Positions 56,283-64,000 of a stretch of 64,000 nt of DNA are shown here, piece after piece; the first letter of the stretch is position 1, and the number at the start of each line of letters is the position of its first letter. The notes under the pieces are model-generated. The model did not search any database. It saw only the letters and a program-made list of their open reading frames with translations, and was not told where the DNA came from. The position numbers and the translations under genes are program-made. This stretch comes from Pseudarthrobacter psychrotolerans (lineage in GTDB: Bacteria; Actinomycetota; Actinomycetes; Actinomycetales; Micrococcaceae), in the NCBI RefSeq assembly GCF_009911795.1, contig NZ_CP047898.1, positions 1,240,001 to 1,304,000 on the forward strand, written 5' to 3'.

Positions 56283-56355
56283 GCCCCAGTAGCTCAGGGG
56301 ATAGAGCAGCGGCCTTCTAATCCGCCGGTCGGGGGTTCGATTCCCTCCTGGGGCA
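56283..56355 (+). tRNA. tRNA-Arg (TCT anticodon), integration site of the island
   Basis: Acceptor GCCCCAG/CTGGGGC, anticodon loop CTTCTAA giving TCT, T-loop GTTCGATTC. CCA not encoded. The integrase of the adjacent island points towards its 3' end, so the attachment core most likely lies in the 3' half of this tRNA. Confidence 0.93.
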
Positions 56356-56363
56356 CAAAGAAA

Positions 56364-56410
56364 AGCGGCTCTGACCTGCGAAAACGTAGATCAGAGCCGC
56401 TTCTATTTTT
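56364..56410 (+). terminator. terminator downstream of tRNA-Arg
   Basis: AGCGGCTCTGA ... TCAGAGCCGCT (11-bp stem, 16-nt loop) followed by TCTATTTTT, just inside the island. Confidence 0.85.
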
Positions 56411-56451
56411 GCCAGGGAATCAGAGAATCCACCGCTTACCCACCGCTTTGG

Positions 56452-56775
56452 CTACTCCAATGGCATCGGAGTCCGGCCTTCTTGCATGGCCTTGATCTTG
56501 GCCACAGTTTCCATCCACCGGTCTTCGCCGCCCCAATGCGGAACTGCTGCCCACGGAATCTGGAGGCGGTCGGTGACGGATTGAACGAGTTCCTCCGCCT
56601 GCCTTGTCTGCAAGGTGCGGGAATCCTTGCCTGCCAATGCAACGGTGAACAGGGCGCGGCTGTTCGCCTCGTCGTAGCTGTACTTCCATTCCAACTCGCC
56701 TCGGTCCTTCAGCTCGTCAAGCATGCCGGCCAGGTGCCAGGTCCGGTGCAGCCTGTAGGGCTTGATGTCAGGCAT
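56452..56775 (-). CDS. hypothetical island protein, 107 aa
   Basis: Soluble, basic-acidic mixed protein beginning MPDIKPYRLHRTWHLAG. The ATG at 56775 has GGAGG 5 nt upstream. It overlaps the end of the integrase gene by 8 bp, so it lies in the integrase transcript. No recognised domain. Confidence 0.7.
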   Translation of the reverse strand: MPDIKPYRLHRTWHLAGMLDELKDRGELEWKYSYDEANSRALFTVALAGKDSRTLQTRQAEELVQSVTDRLQIPWAAVPHWGGEDRWMETVAKIKAMQEGRTPMPLE

Positions 56776-57957
56776 TGCTTCCTCCAAAGGCTTGCAGTAG
56801 CTCAGTCATATCGGGGGCTTGATGGGTCTTTTGCACGTAGTGCCGGCTGGTGATCTGCTCGCTCGAGTGGCCGAGCTGGGCAGAGGCTGAAGCCATGCCC
56901 TCGGCATTGGCCAGCAGAGTACCCACGGACTTGCGGAACGTGTGCGGAGTGACCCACTTGAACCCAATGTCGTCCCGGGCGGAGCGCCACTGCTTCCGGA
57001 AGTTCCCCGGATCCCGCAGAGTGCCCGTGGAGGACGGGAAGACGACGTCCCAAGGGTTGGCCATCAGCTGCTGAACCTGGCGGCGGAGCAGCATCTCAAC
57101 CGCAAACGGGGCAGGTAGTAGCGCTGACGGGAGTTGGTGGACTTGGGATGTTCCTGGATCGTCATCCCCTCCCCCGGCACGTAAATGACCGTGCCGGTGA
57201 CTGTGAGCGTCGGGCGTTCCGCTTTGAGGTCGACGTCTTTCCACCGCAACGCGAGGGCTTCGCCGATGCGTGCGCCCGTGGCGAGCATGACGTCGACGAC
57301 GTCGAGGAGGTCATCGGGGCGCTTGCGGCCCCGCGGCCGGGAGTCGAGCTGCCATTGGCGGAGGCCGGCGCGGAGTGCGGCTGCTTCCTCGAGAGTCAGG
57401 GCACGGACTTCTTTGCGGTTTACCGGCACCTTTGCCACGTCCCGCAATGGGTTGGCGCCGATGGCACCGTGCCGCGCTGCGAGGCCCAGCATGGCGGACA
57501 GGACAGTCTTTGACAGCTTCGCCGTCGCAGCCCCATGTTTGGCTGTCGTAGCCTTCAGGAAGCGGTCCAGGCGCGAGACGGTGGCCTCCCTGATTGTCAG
57601 GCCGCCCACACCCGGGCACACGTAGGAGTCCTTGACCTCGAGGTACCGGCGCTGCGTGTTGATGGCCCGGTCCTGGTCCATGAATTCAAGCCACCATATC
57701 TCAGCGAGCTTGTTGAGGCGGGTATCCGGCGTGATGTCGTCGCCCGCCGGCATGGCCCGATCACGCAGGGCGGCAACCAGGGCCTGCTCAGCCTTGGCGC
57801 CGCGGTCATTCTTGGACACCGACGCCGCCCGGGCCTCCACCTTCCGCGTGATCCCGTCGAAGTCGCGGAACCTCGCCATTGCCCGCCAGACGCCCGGGGC
57901 GACCTCATCGCGGCTGATCCTCCCCCACGTCCCAATCTGCAGCGGCGGCCTAGGCAT
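56768..57957 (-). pseudogene. int: tyrosine recombinase/integrase, apparent single-base frameshift
   Basis: 396 aa after restoring one base. N-terminal arm and SAM-like core-binding domain (residues about 70-150: RYLEVKDSYVCPGVGG) and catalytic domain: first Arg in ATGARIGEALALRW, HxxR in TPHTFRKSVGT, second His and nucleophile Tyr in SEQITSRHYVQK. The break is at a minus-strand CCCC run (57108-57111); one extra C joins YYLP to PFAVEMLLRR. The start at 57957 overlaps the regulator stop by 8 bp. It catalyses integration and excision at tRNA-Arg. The break is likely a sequence error. Confidence 0.9.
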
Positions 57958-58444
57958 CGGGGACGTCCAGTAAGCTGTCCAGCCCATCAGCACGGACGGT
58001 CGACGTCAGATTGCTAGTCGCCTTCATTAGTTCGTTCTTGAGTGCCGTGAGGCTTGTCTCGACCTGTTCGCCCTGTGATCGTGCCTGTTCAAGACGGGCA
58101 AGCGTCGCGACTACGGACCTACGAAGATGATCGTCTGTTATCGCCTGTGTCAAGGCAAAGAGTGCGTCGGAGCTCAGTACGAACTTATCTGACACCGCCA
58201 CGTCTCCGGAATCGTAGCGCCGAAACAAGGCCGGCACGCTGCAGCCCAATATCTGGGCCAGTGCCAAAATCTCGGAGGCGACGAAGGCCCTCTTACCTTG
58301 CTCTGCCCTCGAAACGATCTGGGCCGACCAGGGCTTGCCCAAAAGCTCACCAAGTTTGTGCCCTAGTTCGCTCTGCGACATCTCCACACGAAACGTCTTC
58401 ACGTTCTCGCCGATGATCTGCTCGACCGTCTTTACGTCAGCCAC
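57950..58444 (-). CDS. XRE-family helix-turn-helix regulator of the island
   Basis: 164 aa. N-terminal Cro/C1-type HTH: FRVEMSQSELGHKLGELL and WSAQIVSRAEQGKRAFVAS (residues about 20-60), then a helical tail. The GTG at 58444 has GGAG 4 nt before; upstream ATGs exist in frame but have no ribosome site. It lies divergent from xis and co-oriented with int, the usual place for the lysogeny/stability repressor of a phage or satellite. Confidence 0.8.
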   Translation of the reverse strand: MADVKTVEQIIGENVKTFRVEMSQSELGHKLGELLGKPWSAQIVSRAEQGKRAFVASEILALAQILGCSVPALFRRYDSGDVAVSDKFVLSSDALFALTQAITDDHLRRSVVATLARLEQARSQGEQVETSLTALKNELMKATSNLTSTVRADGLDSLLDVPDA

Positions 58445-58495
58445 GATTCTCCATTCGCCTTGTAGGTACATACAGAATGCCATTAGACGCTGACG

Positions 58496-58524
58496 TTGAC
58501 AAGCCGCAGCGAATCGTGCAAGAT
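58496..58524 (+). promoter_or_regulatory. candidate rightward promoter of the island
   Basis: TTGACA, 17-bp spacer, CAAGAT, pointing towards the xis-like gene. Lies in the divergent region between regulator and xis. Confidence 0.55.
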
Positions 58525-58534
58525 CAACTCAGAA

Positions 58535-58557
58535 GTCCAATGAAAAAGAAATTGGAC
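58535..58557. repeat. perfect inverted repeat, candidate repressor operator
   Basis: GTCCAAT-9 bp-ATTGGAC, a perfect 7-bp repeat just downstream of the candidate rightward promoter and before the xis-like gene; a likely operator for the island's XRE regulator or Xis. Confidence 0.5.
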
Positions 58558-58582
58558 CTGAGGATACATCGGAGGTAACGAC

Positions 58583-58801
58583 ATGGCGAAAGTCATAGAG
58601 CCCGCGGGCGACGTCAAACAGGAATGGCTTTCCCCGGCCCAGCTGGGTGAGGAGCTCAACATCCCACTCGCGACTATTTACGTTTGGCGTTCGAGGCGCA
58701 CTGGCCCACGCGGCCACAAGATCGGCGCGCACGTCCGCTACTCCCGCCAAAGCATCAATGAGTGGCTCGCCTCCGTCGCGGACCCTAAGCCGGCCGCATG
58801 A
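58583..58801 (+). CDS. excisionase-like helix-turn-helix protein
   Basis: 72 aa with a MerR/AlpA-type DNA-binding fold: WLSPAQLGEELNIPLATIYVW, then RSRRTGPRGHKIGAHVRYS and SINEWLAS. GGAGG lies 7 nt before the ATG. First gene of the rightward run and divergent from the regulator; probably an excisionase or transcriptional activator. Confidence 0.85.
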   Translation: MAKVIEPAGDVKQEWLSPAQLGEELNIPLATIYVWRSRRTGPRGHKIGAHVRYSRQSINEWLASVADPKPAA

Positions 58802-59097
58802 AGTCGACGAGCATGAGCGGCGCACAGAAAAGCGGCCCGGGTTTCATCCGCCAAGAAGCAACCCGAACCGCTGGACACATCATCACCAACATCGAAGTAG
58901 GAGATTCAGCTATGTCACAGAGTACCCACACCCCCACCGAAGTGTCACCCACACAGCTCCTGCGGAACCTCATCGAGGACGCCGCCTGCGGGATGGCTCT
59001 CCCTGAGGAGCTCCACGACGCCCTCACGCTGCTTGAGCAAGCCCTGCACCTCGCGCCCACCTCCCCTCATCTGGAACGCGAGGAGGTAGCGGCATGA
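58798..59097 (+). CDS. hypothetical island protein, 99 aa
   Basis: Starts in the ATGA overlap with the xis-like gene, MKSTSMSGAQKSG; an internal ATG at 58912 (MSQSTHTPTEVS, GTAGGAGA before it) may be the true start. The C-terminal half is helical and acidic (LEQALHLAPTSPH). No domain recognised. Confidence 0.6.
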   Translation: MKSTSMSGAQKSGPGFIRQEATRTAGHIITNIEVGDSAMSQSTHTPTEVSPTQLLRNLIEDAACGMALPEELHDALTLLEQALHLAPTSPHLEREEVAA

Positions 59098-59282
59098 GCA
59101 CGCACGAGGAGTGGGAGGACGCACGGGAGAAGCGCGACCGGACAGCTGTCCGGGTCACACGGGCCATCATGGCCGGCAACACACCTTTAGCGAAGGACCT
59201 CGCGGTCTTCGCAGCCTACGAAGACGAGATGGACCGCATCGCGGCCGAGCTCGACGGCAATGGTGGGGAGGCGAAGAAGTGA
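59094..59282 (+). CDS. small hypothetical island protein, 62 aa
   Basis: Starts within the stop of the preceding gene (ATGA) and is highly charged: MSTHEEWEDAREKRDRTAVRV...EDEMDRIAAELDG. Predicted helical. No domain recognised. Confidence 0.65.
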   Translation: MSTHEEWEDAREKRDRTAVRVTRAIMAGNTPLAKDLAVFAAYEDEMDRIAAELDGNGGEAKK

Positions 59283-59521
59283 GCACGAAGACACTGCCGG
59301 CAATCCGACCAGTCCACAACTTCAACCCCGTTTTGCACCACTACTACAAGGGCCGAGACATTGACCGGTCCCAGGTCACCAGAGAGCCCATCACAGCGCT
59401 CTGCGGCGAGATCGGGGCCATCAGCGCCGCTGCCACAGGGCAGCAAAGCAACGGCACCGTCGTGGTCTGCCCCATGTGCGCCACCACGTACGCCGGCCTC
59501 CCCAGGCGTAGGCCCAGATGA
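59279..59521 (+). CDS. small protein with CxnCxxC zinc-type motif, DUF3039-like
   Basis: 80 aa starting GTG in the GTGA overlap with the previous gene. It has TALCGEIGAIS and VVCPMCATTYAGL, a knuckle pair resembling the actinobacterial DUF3039 small proteins often found in phages; family assignment is by pattern only. Rich in basic residues. Confidence 0.65.
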   Translation: MSTKTLPAIRPVHNFNPVLHHYYKGRDIDRSQVTREPITALCGEIGAISAAATGQQSNGTVVVCPMCATTYAGLPRRRPR

Positions 59522-59581
59522 CCCGACCGAGGCAACTACGGAAGCGTTTAGAACAGCGGCTGATCGGAAGGAGGTAAGGCA

Positions 59582-60306
59582 GTGGAGGAACCAGTTGGAG
59601 GATTCGTCCGCCACCCAATCGGCAGATTTGAGTGGGAACGCATTATTCGCCGGGCAATCATCAAGCCGCCGAGCATCAAATTCTTGGGCTCATGATGGCG
59701 ACCTACGCCAGTGCAGACGGAAGCCGTGTGCGGCCAGGCCAGGCGCGTCTGGCGGCCGTCATGGGCACCAGCATCAGCACCGTGGAACGTGGCCAGCGAA
59801 CCATGGAGCAAGAGGGCTTCCTTGAGATGGTGGCCAAAGGTCATTCCTCTGGCCGCGGTCGAAGCAGCGGGTACGCGAGCGAGTACCGCCTGACCATCCC
59901 TTCGGATCTCCTGGACAGGGTCGCCATGCTCGACCCCGACGAGAAACACCCGTCATCCACGCCGGGTGAATCCGGCAATGACCCAGCACCCATGACGGGT
60001 GAATACCCTCCGGAGCCCTCGCGACATTCTCGCGGATCCAAAGAATCACCCGTCAAACAGGACGAAACACCCGTCACTGGTGCGGAAATACCCGTCAATT
60101 TGGCGGAATCACCCGTCACTCATGACGGCCCACCACAACATAAACACCACCACAAAGACCAAAACAAAAAAGATCAATCAGGGTTTCTCACCTTAAGTGA
60201 CGCGAGCGCGAAATCGCCGGACACCTCGGCTGGCATCGAAGCCGAACGGAACCGACAGCTGACCGCCCTGCAATCTCTGATTGATTCTCAGAAAGAGGCA
60301 TCGTGA
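59582..60306 (+). CDS. winged-helix replication-initiator-like protein, apparent frameshift
   Basis: 241 aa after restoring one base. The true start is shown by AAGGAGGTAAGGCA before GTG at 59582, giving MEEPVGGFVRHPIG, but this frame ends at 59694. Adding one G to the GGG run at 59686-59688 continues into LMMATYASADGSRVRP. Residues about 35-110 are a winged helix as in phage replisome organisers (VMGTSISTVERG). Residues about 122-180 form heptad repeats of ESPVxxx type encoded by iterons. A DnaA/DnaB-loading or initiation role is inferred from context. The frameshift is likely a sequence error; a downstream start at 59632 is a second reading. Confidence 0.72.
59947..60118. repeat. iteron cluster inside the initiator-like gene
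   Basis: The 9-mer CACCCGTCA occurs at 60047, 60068 and 60110, with TACCCGTCA at 60089; start points are exactly 21 bp apart. A further copy is at 59947 and one in inverted orientation (TGACGGGTG) at 59993. An A-rich, G-poor stretch of about 60 bp (60130-60180) follows. Such iterons inside a replication gene resemble the lambda O/ori arrangement. Confidence 0.75.
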
Positions 60307-60587
60307 CCAGCCTCAACGAAACACCTCACGCCGACGAGGTCGCCAGCCCAGAAGAACTCGAAGCTGCCATCACCCAATTCGCGGATAGGTGCTACGCGCT
60401 ACCCCCCAGCAAACAGCACTTCCTCCTGGCAACACTCGCCCAACGACCGGCAATCCACATCGACACCTTCGCCATCCTGCTAATCATGCTCGAGAGCAGC
60501 GACGACGGTTTCAACATCAACGACCCAGAGCTCAACCGCATGGTCGAACACGCCCTGACAAGACACACCCCCCAGGAGCCCGCATGA
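60303..60587 (+). CDS. small hypothetical island protein, 94 aa
   Basis: GTG in the GTGA overlap with the preceding gene. Acidic and helical (EELEAAITQFADRCYALPPSKQ; DTFAILLIMLE). Could assist the initiator like phage helicase-loader partners, but nothing shows this directly. Confidence 0.6.
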   Translation: MTSLNETPHADEVASPEELEAAITQFADRCYALPPSKQHFLLATLAQRPAIHIDTFAILLIMLESSDDGFNINDPELNRMVEHALTRHTPQEPA

Positions 60588-60727
60588 CCCACACCCCACC
60601 ATCCAAATGCGACCGATGCGTCCCCACCGAAACACTCACGTCCGACTCCGGGATCACCTGGACCATCGAAACCGCGCACCAGACAACCTGCCCCAACCAC
60701 CCCCACCACACGGAGACCCCCAAATGA
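60584..60727 (+). CDS. tiny Cys-containing hypothetical protein, 47 aa
   Basis: Overlaps its neighbours by ATGA on both sides, so it is part of a translationally coupled chain. It has CDRC and a later single Cys near TCPNHPHH, a possible zinc binder. Short, so confidence is limited. Confidence 0.5.
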   Translation: MTHTPPSKCDRCVPTETLTSDSGITWTIETAHQTTCPNHPHHTETPK

Positions 60728-61077
60728 TCGCACCCACATACTTCTCAGTAATCGGCACAGACCACGCCCCGGAAATAGCAACCGACCCAACCTACGAATT
60801 CGCCGGACACCTAGCCGCCGCCGTCGCCGCCACGTCCAAGGACGTCGAAACCATGAAGGCCGCCATCTGGGAAAGCGTCGTCACCCTCGCAGCCACCGGA
60901 GTCGACCAGAAGCACATCATCGGCGCACTCTCCTCAACGCTCGCGATATTCGCCGTCGAAATCTTCAACCCCGCCGTCGACATCATGGAAGAACTCACCC
61001 CCGGGCTGGACTACCGCGACATGATCGGTCGCGCCACAGGCCCCGAGCCCACCAATACCCACCGAGGAGACCGATAG
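60724..61077 (+). CDS. hypothetical island protein, 117 aa
   Basis: Starts in the ATGA overlap at 60724. Alpha-helical, Ala-rich (AGHLAAAVAATSKDVETMK) and weakly hydrophobic helix ALSSTLAIFAVEIF. No domain recognised. Confidence 0.6.
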   Translation: MIAPTYFSVIGTDHAPEIATDPTYEFAGHLAAAVAATSKDVETMKAAIWESVVTLAATGVDQKHIIGALSSTLAIFAVEIFNPAVDIMEELTPGLDYRDMIGRATGPEPTNTHRGDR

Positions 61078-61257
61078 ATGAGCAACCAAAAGCACGACAT
61101 CGGCAACAAAAAACGCCGACACGCCGAAGCCCGACAAGCCAGCAGCCACGAAATAACAACCCAAGCCATGGCCCACAGCCTCATCGAACGCGGCCTCGCC
61201 ACCACACGCATCCTCGACGCAAACGGCACCCCCAACCGACGCAGGCAGCGGCCATGA
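61078..61257 (+). CDS. small basic hypothetical protein, 59 aa
   Basis: Starts right after the preceding TAG and ends in the ATGA overlap with the next gene. Basic (MSNQKHDIGNKKRRHAEARQ and NRRRQRP at the end), possibly nucleic-acid binding. No family match. Confidence 0.5.
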   Translation: MSNQKHDIGNKKRRHAEARQASSHEITTQAMAHSLIERGLATTRILDANGTPNRRRQRP

Positions 61258-61892
61258 ACGCACCCATCAAACAAGCCGGCCAGGGTCAACCCATCAAACG
61301 CTCGACACAGTTTTACTGCGCGGCGAAGAAAACGGACGGAAGCCCGTGCCGGGCGTACGCGATCAAGGGCGGCCGGGTGTGTCGTGTTCATGGTGGGATG
61401 GCCCCCTCTGTGAGGGCTGCAGCGGCCCGGAGGGCGCAGGAGGAGGCGGCACGGCGGCAGTTGGCCAACCTTGGCGAGCCTGTGGCCATTGACCCTGCTG
61501 AGGCGCTGCTACAGCTTATTGCTTGGAAGTACGGCGAGGTGAAGTGGCTGCGGGCCAGGGTGCAGGATCTCCCGGGCGATGAACTGACTTGGGGCTTGTC
61601 TCAGACAGATGTGGGCATTGGTCCCGAGGGGCCCATCGACAAGGCCACTCACAAGGCTTCCCCGTCCGTTTGGTGGGCTCTTTTGCGGGAAGCTGAGGAC
61701 CAGCTCGCCGACTACGCTGCGAGGGCTCTACGGGCCGGCGTCGACGAACGCCGGGTCAAGATCGCGGAACAGCAGGGCCTCATGGTCCATGCCGTCATGA
61801 TGGCCGTGTTCAACCGGCTCGCCCTGACACCTGAACAGTGGACGCTGGCCAGGGCGGCGGCGCCGGAAGAGCTGCGGAGGCTGGCAGGTTGA
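61254..61892 (+). CDS. phage HGG-motif protein of the terminase-adjacent family
   Basis: 212 aa. A knuckle YCAAKKTDGSPCRAYAIKG...CRVHGG near residues 20-45 is the CxnCRxHGG signature of actinophage proteins usually encoded beside terminase genes and sometimes called small terminase subunits. Its middle (AWKYGEVKWLRARVQ), PSVWWALLREAEDQLADYA, and C-terminal VDERRVKIAEQQG match that family. It could recruit packaging machinery. No large terminase gene follows in the window. Confidence 0.75.
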   Translation: MNAPIKQAGQGQPIKRSTQFYCAAKKTDGSPCRAYAIKGGRVCRVHGGMAPSVRAAAARRAQEEAARRQLANLGEPVAIDPAEALLQLIAWKYGEVKWLRARVQDLPGDELTWGLSQTDVGIGPEGPIDKATHKASPSVWWALLREAEDQLADYAARALRAGVDERRVKIAEQQGLMVHAVMMAVFNRLALTPEQWTLARAAAPEELRRLAG

Positions 61893-62338
61893 CCGTGTAC
61901 AACCCCCGCCGGCCACTGCTTGGCGCATTCATCAACGGCCCAAGTGCGCAGATTTTGACGGCGATGCTCAAACGCGAAGAAGTGGTTCGGCGGTCGAAGG
62001 ACTTGCCGACGGACCTCAGAAACAAGCTCCTGGACGATTGGGATGCGATGGCGGAAGCTGCCAGGCTTTACCGCGAGCGGTGCGGGGAGCTTCGCAACGG
62101 GTCGCCGGCAGAGTCCGCGGCCGTGATGGTTTCGGGTACTGAAGCCGCCGGCACCCAGCCAGTACTTTGGCCCGTGCGCATGGTGGCCATGGTGATCGGT
62201 CGGACGGACAGCCGAGTCCGGCAGATGCTCCGCTGGGGAGAGCTGGAGGGCGTGAAGGTGGACGGCCGCTGGAGGGTCAGCGAGGACACCGTGGGCGACT
62301 ACGGAATGAGGCAACTCCTGGCCCGCCAGTCAGCCTGA
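61889..62338 (+). CDS. helix-turn-helix protein, 149 aa
   Basis: TTG start in the TTGA overlap, with GGAGG 8 nt upstream (GTG at 61895 is an alternative). The C-terminal third is a HTH of the AlpA/excisionase kind: WPVRMVAMVIGRTDSRVRQ, then WGELEGVKVDGRWRVSED. N-terminal half is helical. Possibly a regulator of the downstream genes or a DNA-packaging adaptor; unknown. Confidence 0.65.
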   Translation: MTVYNPRRPLLGAFINGPSAQILTAMLKREEVVRRSKDLPTDLRNKLLDDWDAMAEAARLYRERCGELRNGSPAESAAVMVSGTEAAGTQPVLWPVRMVAMVIGRTDSRVRQMLRWGELEGVKVDGRWRVSEDTVGDYGMRQLLARQSA

Positions 62339-62386
62339 TATGAGGCCATTCGCAGGCCGAAACAACGCGGAATCGCGAAAACATAG

Positions 62387-62418
62387 GAATGGGACGCCCT
62401 AACTCGGGCGTCCCATTC
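62387..62418 (+). terminator. hairpin after the small-gene run
   Basis: GAATGGGACGCCC-TAACTC-GGGCGTCCCATTC, a perfect 13-bp stem, 48 bp after the last stop. No U-tract. A second hairpin (GGCGCTGCC / GGCAGCGCC) lies at 62552-62576. The 286 bp between 62339 and 62624 hold no supported gene. Confidence 0.55.
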
Positions 62419-62624
62419 GTGCATCCACCGGAAACCCACCACTATGAACAGTATTTCCGCCCCCGGAAACGCGGAAACGATTCGCGGGCAGTACGTCAGA
62501 GACTGATTGTGGATGGGTTCTTTAGGGAATCCCCAGCCGGAACCAGTGCCCGGCGCTGCCGGTGGAAGGCAGCGCCGGTCACTACCCCGGGCCCCGACAC
62601 TTCATAACCAGAGGAGGGCCAGCA

Positions 62625-63220
62625 ATGACCACCAACGATGACGTCCTGGCCGCCCTGCGCGGGGACAGACCGAGCGAACAATGCGGGAAAGCGTTCACCG
62701 CGCCTTCGCCGGAGAGCGCGATCTGAGCGATGTTGAGCGCCACACAAACGAATCCGTAGCCCGGGCATTCGGCCGCGAACCCGAACGACAGGTGACCGGG
62801 AACGAACTGCCCATCCAGAAGCGCGACTTCAGCGCCGTCGCGGTTTGGGCGGCGAAGGAAGCGGCCGCCACCGCCACCCGCGCACTGAGCCAGGCCATCA
62901 TGCGTGCCGATGGGAACAAGGGCATCTACGCCGCCGAGGCGGAAGCCCAGGCCATCGCGGAAGAGTCCTACGCCTTGGCGGCCAAGCGCAGCCCTTATGA
63001 GGACGTCCGGCACGAAGCAGTTGCCAGGGCCCTGACGAAGCTGGCGGACACATGTGAGCGCCGGGCAGAAGAGAGCAAACGGCAGCCCCGGAAGGCAGCC
63101 CCCAAGGCCGCCCAGCAGCCGCAGGCAGCGCCAAGGCACCAACAGGAATCCCTTAGCCCCCGGAGGCGTGTACAGATCTCCGAACAAGCCACCCGCGGCA
63201 ACGTCAGAGCCGTGAAGTAG
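62625..63220 (+). CDS. hypothetical island protein, apparent frameshift
   Basis: 198 aa after restoring one base. ATG at 62625 (AGGAGG 7-10 nt upstream) reads MTTNDDVLAALRG and then drifts out of frame at a GGGG run (62661-62664); one extra G joins it to TERTMRESVHRAFAG and the rest of a 180-codon frame that runs to 63220. The protein is helical, Ala-rich and ends in a Gln/Pro/Ala/Arg-rich basic tail. No domain recognised; coding direction and downstream gene spacing fit the island. Confidence 0.6.
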
Positions 63221-63253
63221 ACCCCCGAACTTTCCACAAGGAGCAATCAGCAC

Positions 63254-63922
63254 ATGGCAATTTTCAGCAAGAGCGTAGACGCTGCTCAAACCGCAGTGTC
63301 CAAGGCCGAAGACCTTCTCAAGGAATGGGAAAGCAAAGCCATCAATGCCCGTGCCGAGGCCGAGCGACTGGACAACGAGTCCGGCGCCGCGATCCTCGCC
63401 GACGAGTCAGCCGCCGACACCATCACACTCAAGATCCACTCATGGGAGCGCAAGGCACGCGCCTTCGATCAAGCCGCGGAGGAAGCCCGCAGGAAGCTCA
63501 CAGCCGCCCGCCACGAGGCGCTCGAAGCGGAGGCCCGCGAAGAGGACAAGGAAGGCACAGCCGGCCGCAGGAAGGCGGAAGCACACAACGCCAAAGTCGC
63601 CGCCCTCGTCCACCAGCTCGAAGTGCTCGACGAATGTGACTGGGGCCGCGCCCCGGCCAAGGATCCCATCTCCGGTGAGCTTGTTGGTTCACAACGGGGG
63701 ATCGGTCACAGACTCGCCACGGAGGCGGAGCGGCATGAGATACGGGCCGCGTCCATCCGGCACTTCCTTGAAACGGGCCGGATCCCAAACGACTACTTCG
63801 AGATCAACGAGGTTACCGGCACCACGTTCAACACGAGTGCCCGGATCCTGAACGAAGGCGACAACATCCCAGCTTCCCTGTACGTCGCCCGTAACGCCGG
63901 CCTGAGCTTCCTGGAGGCCTGA
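63254..63922 (+). CDS. coiled-coil hypothetical island protein
   Basis: 222 aa with about 100 residues of charged coiled coil at the N-terminus (KAEDLLKEWESKAINARAEA; EEARRKLTAARHEALEAE) and a compact C-terminal domain with WGRAPAKDP and ITRIPNDY-like stretches. ACAAGGAGCAATCAGCAC precedes the ATG (GGAG 9 nt). Resembles phage scaffolding or head-morphogenesis helpers only by architecture; unassigned. Confidence 0.65.
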   Translation: MAIFSKSVDAAQTAVSKAEDLLKEWESKAINARAEAERLDNESGAAILADESAADTITLKIHSWERKARAFDQAAEEARRKLTAARHEALEAEAREEDKEGTAGRRKAEAHNAKVAALVHQLEVLDECDWGRAPAKDPISGELVGSQRGIGHRLATEAERHEIRAASIRHFLETGRIPNDYFEINEVTGTTFNTSARILNEGDNIPASLYVARNAGLSFLEA

Positions 63923-63925
63923 CCC

Positions 63926-64000
63926 GTGACAACCATGCAGGAAGCCCTCCAAGCCGCGGCAGCGGTGATCGAGGAGGACGTCAGGAAGATGGACGCTGGC
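63926..64000 (+). CDS. start of a further island gene (cut by window end)
   Basis: GTG at 63926 with GGAGG 9 nt before it; 25 codons visible (MTTMQEALQAAAAVIEEDVRKM). Too little to classify. Confidence 0.55.
   Translation, partial: MTTMQEALQAAAAVIEEDVRKMDAG

Follow-up and report, generated by a model that had tools for sequence, protein, structure and literature searches.

A candidate lambda-O-type replication origin within the initiator gene of a tRNA-Arg island in Pseudarthrobacter psychrotolerans

The island and its initiator gene

The window analysed here is a 64-kb stretch of the Pseudarthrobacter psychrotolerans genome (contig NZ_CP047898.1, positions 1,240,001 to 1,304,000). The following features belong to the element discussed below, and coordinates are those of the window.

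56317..56358, plus strand: attachment core, a 42-bp exact repeat consisting of the 3' part of tRNA-Arg(TCT) (56283-56356) and 2 bp
56768..57993, minus strand: tyrosine integrase in two frames (57064-57993 and 56768-57244), with PF00589 and phrog_1 on the pieces
57950..58483, minus strand: CI-like HTH repressor, matching phrog_8 (E 5.4e-5) and phrog_4 (E 9.7e-4) weakly
58583..58801, plus strand: excisionase-like HTH_17 protein (PF12728, phrog_66)
59585..59692, plus strand: conserved N-terminal piece of the initiator, in a different frame from the remainder (positions 2-37 of the family profile, E 2.1e-12)
59632..60306, plus strand: initiator, with a winged-helix DNA-binding domain, a disordered iteron-bearing linker and a C-terminal helix (family profile, PHROG, model of the relative P0005)
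60724..61077, plus strand: 117-aa protein 3' of the initiator, with five relatives besides itself in the protein search
69310..69351 (L047:14310-14351), outside the window: second attachment core, the same 42-bp exact repeat

The two 42-bp copies bound 13.0 kb. The first-pass annotation had assigned the candidate origin to an island, and a 13.0-kb element with an integrase between att repeats agrees with this. Further genes of the island encode a 212-aa phrog_3678 protein, a 1027-aa tape measure protein, an HK97-gp10-like protein and another protein of the HTH_17 type. Among the subset of island genes that were scanned, none was recognisable as a helicase or loader. The 117-aa protein has a 75.7% identical stretch in the island of genome G129; we conjecture an accessory role in replication and regard it as a candidate helicase loader.

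The same attachment core is found twice in genomes G129 (12.1 kb), G170 (11.9 kb) and G099 (15.8 kb). These islands encode an integrase and a 1034-1110-aa ORF matching the tape measure protein (28.8% over part in G099). A search for head genes gave none among the subset of ORFs scanned in the islands of the window, G129, G170 and G099; in G172, related genes lie within an apparent fuller prophage that has a head protein. Islands of 12-16 kb in tRNA-Arg(TCT), with an integrase, a replication initiator and a tape measure ORF that is intact at 1027-1110 aa, thus recur (window 56317-64000 continued by L047:9001-14351, L059, L097 and L098). The window island shows several features of satellites, namely an integrase, a regulator, an excisionase, a replication gene of its own, att repeats and a size below about 16 kb. 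The recurring islands are candidate tape-measure-bearing phage satellites of the Arthrobacter group. Satellites of this kind have been published for PLEs and cf-PICIs, according to parts of PMC12987554; the islands resemble these in size, integrase and tape measure gene, but the host here is an actinobacterium and we infer the satellite nature of the island.

The ORF at 59632-60306 alone has weak PHROG matches (phrog_345, E 4.7e-4; phrog_270, E 6.1e-4) and 27 relatives at E<=1e-3, the named ones coming from Arthrobacter, Pseudarthrobacter and Paenarthrobacter. Of 23 aligned relatives, 20 match phrog_270, a replication initiation protein family (best E 4.1e-31), while 14 match phrog_1032 and six phrog_391, also replication-initiation families; the most frequent match, in 21, is phrog_26991, annotated as function unknown. 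The relation to O-like families is shown via PHROG 270, 1032, 391 and 345, the window copy itself matching weakly (best E 4.7e-4). The structural model of P0005 has a winged-helix domain at residues 10-113 approximately (pLDDT mostly near 90, lower at 91-100), unstructured parts with pLDDT<50 at 125-182 and 199-216, and a C-terminal helix at 219-240. Nearly all repeated heptads fall in the 125-182 linker. The earlier description of a winged-helix, phage-type initiator gene that holds its own iterons is supported. In two relatives, L060 and L098, the C-terminal parts match a primosomal-protein PHROG, whereas the window type has a short helix only.

Foldseek with the P0005 model gave nothing at E<=0.001, only generic winged-helix regulators (best 2d1h_A, E 0.028), and a sequence search of solved structures found no close relative of the initiator (best 2d1h_A, E 0.021). 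A tblastn search with the window ORF against phage records gave no match; with the intact P0005 it gave 12 phage records, all Mycobacterium phages at 28-30% identity, and two plasmids. A single-sequence scan found one locus in genome_contigs and none in viral_contigs, and an alignment-based scan found 24 in viral_contigs. By alignment search, initiator matches occur in 14 of the 395 family genomes searched, 4 of 396 at the order level and 6 of 206 at the genus level; a further initiator of this kind was not found in the window's own genome at E<=1e-10. In phages and islands of the Arthrobacter group these genes are labelled, for example, hypothetical protein or helix-turn-helix protein.

The first-pass annotation treated the initiator gene as intact. 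This does not hold for the window copy, where the family profile matches lie in two frames: the N-terminal piece in one and the rest (59677-60300, profile positions 33-234, E 7.9e-86) in the other. The integrase is split as well, within the catalytic domain; G129 has an undivided integrase of 427 aa, to whose residues 17-310 and 311-423 the two pieces correspond. The initiator of G129 is undivided too, and with its array takes up L059 9727-10476. With both the initiator and the integrase frame-split, the window copy may be inactive or decayed, or it may be mis-sequenced; decay and assembly error may both explain the split frames. Despite this, the origin DNA of the window copy looks intact.

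Iterons in the window and in relatives

The initiator gene contains the following sites.

59947..59955, plus strand: outlying direct iteron, read as H-P-S
59993..60001, minus strand: outlying inverted iteron, read as MTG
60047..60118, plus strand: four direct iterons [CT]ACCCGTCA, starting at 60047, 60068, 60089 and 60110, in 21-bp steps
60113..60128, no strand assigned: dyad CCGTCACTCATGACGG, made up of the last iteron plus an inverted half-site
60129..60180 (approximately), plus strand: CCCACC followed by a G-poor, A/C-rich tract, the proposed unwinding and helicase-loading site

The four copies in 21-bp steps, the additional direct and inverted copies upstream and the A-rich stretch just after the array had been described from the sequence before, and all are present as exact matches or, for the stretch, at about 60129-60180. 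The 64-kb window has six exact matches to YACCCGTCA, all within 59947-60118, with 1.22 expected and 0 of 100 shuffles reaching six. When codons were shuffled synonymously with the protein held fixed, the best 8-mer reached at most three copies per 260 bp, compared with the six observed (0 of 200 shuffles reach six). Genome-wide enrichment of the word is absent, since the iteron pattern has 80 matches and the reversed control pattern 91. Neither does the genome have a second cluster; besides the six, no two matches lie within 350 bp of each other.

The same word is read in three ways in one gene: HPS at 59947, MTG in the inverted copy at 59993, and, for the four heptads, [S/T/I]PV[K/T/N]. The inverted copy lies 55 bp before the first of the four, measured by 8-mer starts, and L003 and L009 have the same 55-bp distance. 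Base composition over the 60 nt scored 3' of the last 8-mer is 0.50 A and 0.08 G. DnaA boxes, searched as TTRTCCACA with up to one mismatch, number 13 in the window, where 13.2 are expected; none lies past 56506 and hence none at the candidate origin.

Repeats were counted in 38 initiator rows, representing 37 genes, by the best 8-mer against 200 synonymous shuffles per row. Nine duplicates or near-duplicates (L004, L006, L035, L037-L040, L042 and L046) were dropped beforehand, and L002, L010 and L022 (the window itself) as well as L052 and L053 (the same genes as L003 and L005) were never entered. In 25 of the 38 rows none of the 200 shuffles reaches the observed count, and in L029 one does. 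The remaining 12 rows are seven short forms, L007/L054 (one gene, of 100 aa), L013, L019 and L050. A significant array is absent from L007/L054, L013, L019 and L050 by synonymous shuffles, and from L058 by dinucleotide shuffles. At least five copies of the best 8-mer occur in 23 of the 38 rows, against 5 of 191 control ORFs, of which four overlap an initiator by coordinates; the controls were taken from the window, L001, L048, L049 and viral contigs and cut at 1500 nt, and part of them was checked for initiator overlap. The loci are related, and counts across them are therefore not independent. The search is a partial detector, as exact 8-mers miss the degenerate iterons of lambda itself.

Most relatives have repeats of their own at the corresponding position, as a rule spaced by 21 or 22 bp. 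Among 28 initiators, same-strand steps of up to 30 bp are 21 bp in 28 cases, 22 bp in 20, 23 bp in two, 26 bp in two and 16 bp in one. At least one step of 21 or 22 bp is present in 21 of the 28; there is none in L013, L016, L021, L029, L043, L045 and L050. The earlier claim of exactly 21 bp is correct for the window, but as a general rule it has to be widened to 21-22 bp (28 + 20 of the 53 short steps). Steps of 22 bp break the reading frame, as in L051, L001, L027 and L028. Some lineages keep the frame of the repeats and others cycle it, so that in L051 four successive copies occupy three frames; in L011 three copies of the word, 21 bp apart, read H-P-S, and a copy 22 bp further on stands in another frame. 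Two M. abscessus phages carry five copies of ACGACCGG in steps of 33, 33, 34 and 22 bp. A conserved protein without the 21-bp spacing had been named beforehand as an outcome that would refute the origin. Relatives with 22-bp steps show this outcome in part, but in a manner that strengthens the reading of the repeats as DNA sites.

In nine relatives the initiator stops shortly after the DNA-binding domain. Eight of these have an array of the same type that extends past the stop codon, with a count that none of 100 dinucleotide shuffles reaches; in the ninth, L058, 9 of 100 shuffles do. The initiator protein therefore need not include the array. In L030, L036, L041, L044 and L057 a single outlying copy is still found inside the end of the ORF. 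For three of the eight (L031, L036 and L041), half of the array is covered by no ORF of more than 55 aa, and the arrays of the others are overlapped by chance or real ORFs. Two pairs among the short forms are close relatives, L036 with L041 and L025 with L044. Beside the arrays of L025, L036 and L057, unlike in the window, we saw by eye the words TGTGGATAA and TTATCCACA, which we take to be DnaA-box-like.

Coupling to the DNA-binding domain and the 3' element

Sharing of the repeat word follows identity of the DNA-binding domain. Across 31 loci, a word is common to 4 of 4 pairs at 80% domain identity or above, 10 of 21 at 60-80%, 7 of 60 at 50-60%, 4 of 154 at 40-50%, 3 of 162 at 30-40% and 0 of 64 below 30%. 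The other 11 of the 21 pairs at 60-80% have different words. Exceptions with low identity and yet a common word are L028 with L005, L008 and L009 (43-48%) and L055 with L032-L034 (32-39%). The domains of the window and L003 are 77% identical, have STVERG in the presumed recognition helix, and both use ACCCGTCA. L005, L008 and L009 are 63-70% identical to these two, have STVRRG, and their word is ACCGGTCA; of the four copies in L008, two have this word and two have ACCAGTCA.

The change of word is silent at the iteron proline codon, which is CCC in all four window copies and CCG or CCA in all four copies of L005, L008 and L009. Between the window and L003, 8 of 8 iteron Pro/Val codons are identical, compared with 67 of 115 codons elsewhere; between the window and each of L005, L008 and L009 the number is 4 of 8, with all four prolines differing. 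Iteron codons of L005 are identical at 16 of 16 positions in L009 (elsewhere 169 of 284) and at 12 of 15 in L008 (elsewhere 112 of 224). These comparisons suggest that evolution preserves the DNA sites and not the repeats of the encoded protein. The earlier proposal that the repeat serves both DNA and protein is not supported, given heptads in predicted disorder, 22-bp steps that break the frame, and arrays past the stop codon in 8 of 9 short forms.

A swap of the domain is seen in two islands. In L097 the last 46 residues are the C-terminus of the L059 initiator (67% identical), and in L098 the last 220 residues are those of L009 (75% identical), each joined to another DNA-binding domain. BLAST of the swapped domains gave no match for L097 against the L059 domain or for L098 against the L009 domain; the L097 and L098 domains are 34% alike. 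L097 has five copies of CAAC[AG][AG]AACGTTG in steps of 25, 23, 25 and 23 bp, and L098 has CAACAAAACGTTG twice and GTTGCCCC, with steps of 23, 25, 24 and 46 bp, both counted without a shuffle control. This suggests that specificity, meaning the domain together with its iterons, is a swappable unit. L097 4822-5517 (reverse-strand numbering) and L098:4575-5801 thereby represent a second, unrelated domain type, with CAACAAAACGTTG-like repeats at 23-25 bp and C-termini of the window family.

For the DNA 3' of the array we used 30 loci chosen for having an array, with kinship ignored. Left out, as lacking a usable phased array or repeating another locus, were L007, L013, L016, L019, L020, L021, L029, L045, L050, L054, L056 and L058. 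CC[ACT]ACC occurs within 25 nt after the last iteron in 24 of the 30, compared with 3.8% of random 31-nt pieces, and in 13 of the 30 it lies exactly 10 nt after the 8-mer; it was not found within 75 nt in L015, L017, L018 and L034. In the tract that follows the last iteron the mean G content is 0.13 versus 0.34 earlier in the gene, lower in all 30 loci, and A exceeds T in 29 of them. An inverted half-site of at least 6 bp after the last iteron is found in 17 of the 30, as a raw count with no chance control; L005, L008 and L009 have no dyad of 4 bp or more.

Where the element is coding, CCNACC encodes a Pro-Pro pair that is invariant in alignment A2, though in a linker of low confidence (pLDDT ~55), and the same bases recur in versions beyond the stop codon. 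Words of the form ACC[AT] in the tract are most often spaced by 11, 12 or 14 bp; with 23 rows chosen for CC[ACT]ACC, related rows unthinned and a mononucleotide-shuffle null, this spacing is suggestive only. CCNACC and the A/C-rich tract are likely the unwinding and helicase-loading site. A search of the open-access literature found no description of the recurrent 3' tract.

A probable lambda-type plan and its alternatives

We consider it very probable that the locus is an origin of the lambda O type, in which a winged-helix initiator of a phage family binds iterons that lie within its own gene, in the part coding for the linker. This plan is itself already known from lambda, and the first-pass annotation named it; iterons inside the initiator gene, phasing at about two helical turns and an A-rich tract 3' of them support that comparison well. 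As in ori-lambda, the candidate origin lies in the middle of the initiator gene and has four direct iterons followed by an A-rich tract. The annotated iterons of lambda (J02459) have steps of 20, 24 and 23, and the lambda tract at the same place is A-rich (0.50) and G-poor (0.17). The locus differs from lambda in iteron sequence, in steps of 21-22 instead of 20-24, in the dyad at the last iteron, in a tract that is A/C-rich and begins with CCNACC, and in that no P-like loader was recognised in the scanned genes. The gp38/oriL system of Bacillus phage SPP1 is alike by description, but SPP1 has the loader gp39 and the helicase gp40, neither recognised here. In Stx phages additional iterons merely lengthen O by residues, as described in part of PMC7466680. 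Closest in host are the RepA origins of mycobacterial prophages, for which a section of PMC7157519 reports no repeats in the regions examined and an origin thought to lie upstream of or within repA. A literature search, judged mostly from titles and listings, yielded no paper that we recognised as describing the present origin family.

At the level of sequence, comparison between relatives shows the sites, their spacing, selection on the DNA, the coupling of site and domain, and the recurrent 3' tract. For the later steps, a multimer of the initiator on the array, melting of the tract and helicase loading, we infer from analogy, with lambda and SPP1 as models (parts of PMC7466680 and PMC6316719). 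In brief, about four initiator units would line up on one face of the DNA, at sites two helical turns apart, and the two outlying sites would provide further initiator contacts. Strain may be directed from the last site with its inverted half-site into the adjacent CCCACC and A/C-rich tract, which would open. The C-terminal part of the initiator, or the product of a neighbouring gene, would then bring the host replicative helicase to the opened tract, and the origin would replicate the integrated phage-like island after excision.

The repeats could instead be operators through which the protein represses or activates its own gene or operon. The fold does resemble MarR/ArsR-type regulators (the best Foldseek hit being 2d1h_A, E 0.028) and the sites lie in the protein's own gene, but the replication-initiation PHROG matches and a phased mid-gene array followed by a recurrent G-poor tract speak against this reading. 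So do the primosomal-protein matches of L060 and L098 and a sliding clamp gene within about 2 kb in two M. abscessus phages, and we consider operators improbable. That the heptads are kept in close relatives of the window initiator fits a second alternative, in which they are a tandem protein feature for protein interaction and the DNA repetition is a by-product of recent duplication. We give this next to no credence, as the same DNA word has three readings in this gene, 22-bp steps break the frame, arrays continue past stop codons, codons are identical within iterons, and the heptad linker is predicted to be disordered. The comparisons make a protein feature very unlikely as the sole explanation of the repeats.

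A variant of the lambda-O-type reading is that the initiator has been lost and the origin is used in trans, with a helper phage initiator reading the same word. The split initiator frame beside six intact sites would fit this, but the genome has no other initiator of the family at E<=1e-10 and the split may be a sequencing error; we regard the variant as rather unlikely. Returning to the lambda-O-type origin as such, we tentatively propose that actinobacterial phages, plasmid-borne elements and satellites might share one origin chassis. Here an exchangeable cassette of domain and iterons would stand at a near-fixed distance from CCNACC and a G-poor tract rich in A and C, with a dyad often standing before them. 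Since this element would not depend on initiator specificity, its reader would be a factor common to these origins, probably the helicase of the host or the corresponding loader. Such a chassis would shift between coding and non-coding DNA; among its users in the Arthrobacter group would be tape-measure-bearing satellites in tRNA-Arg.

The comparison separates selection on DNA from selection on protein, and it offers a testable, minimal origin for phages and islands of the Arthrobacter group. A 3' tract common to initiators with unrelated iterons gives a handle on the loading of the host helicase, and for genetic work on bacteria of the Arthrobacter group, segments of this kind might be used as replicons.
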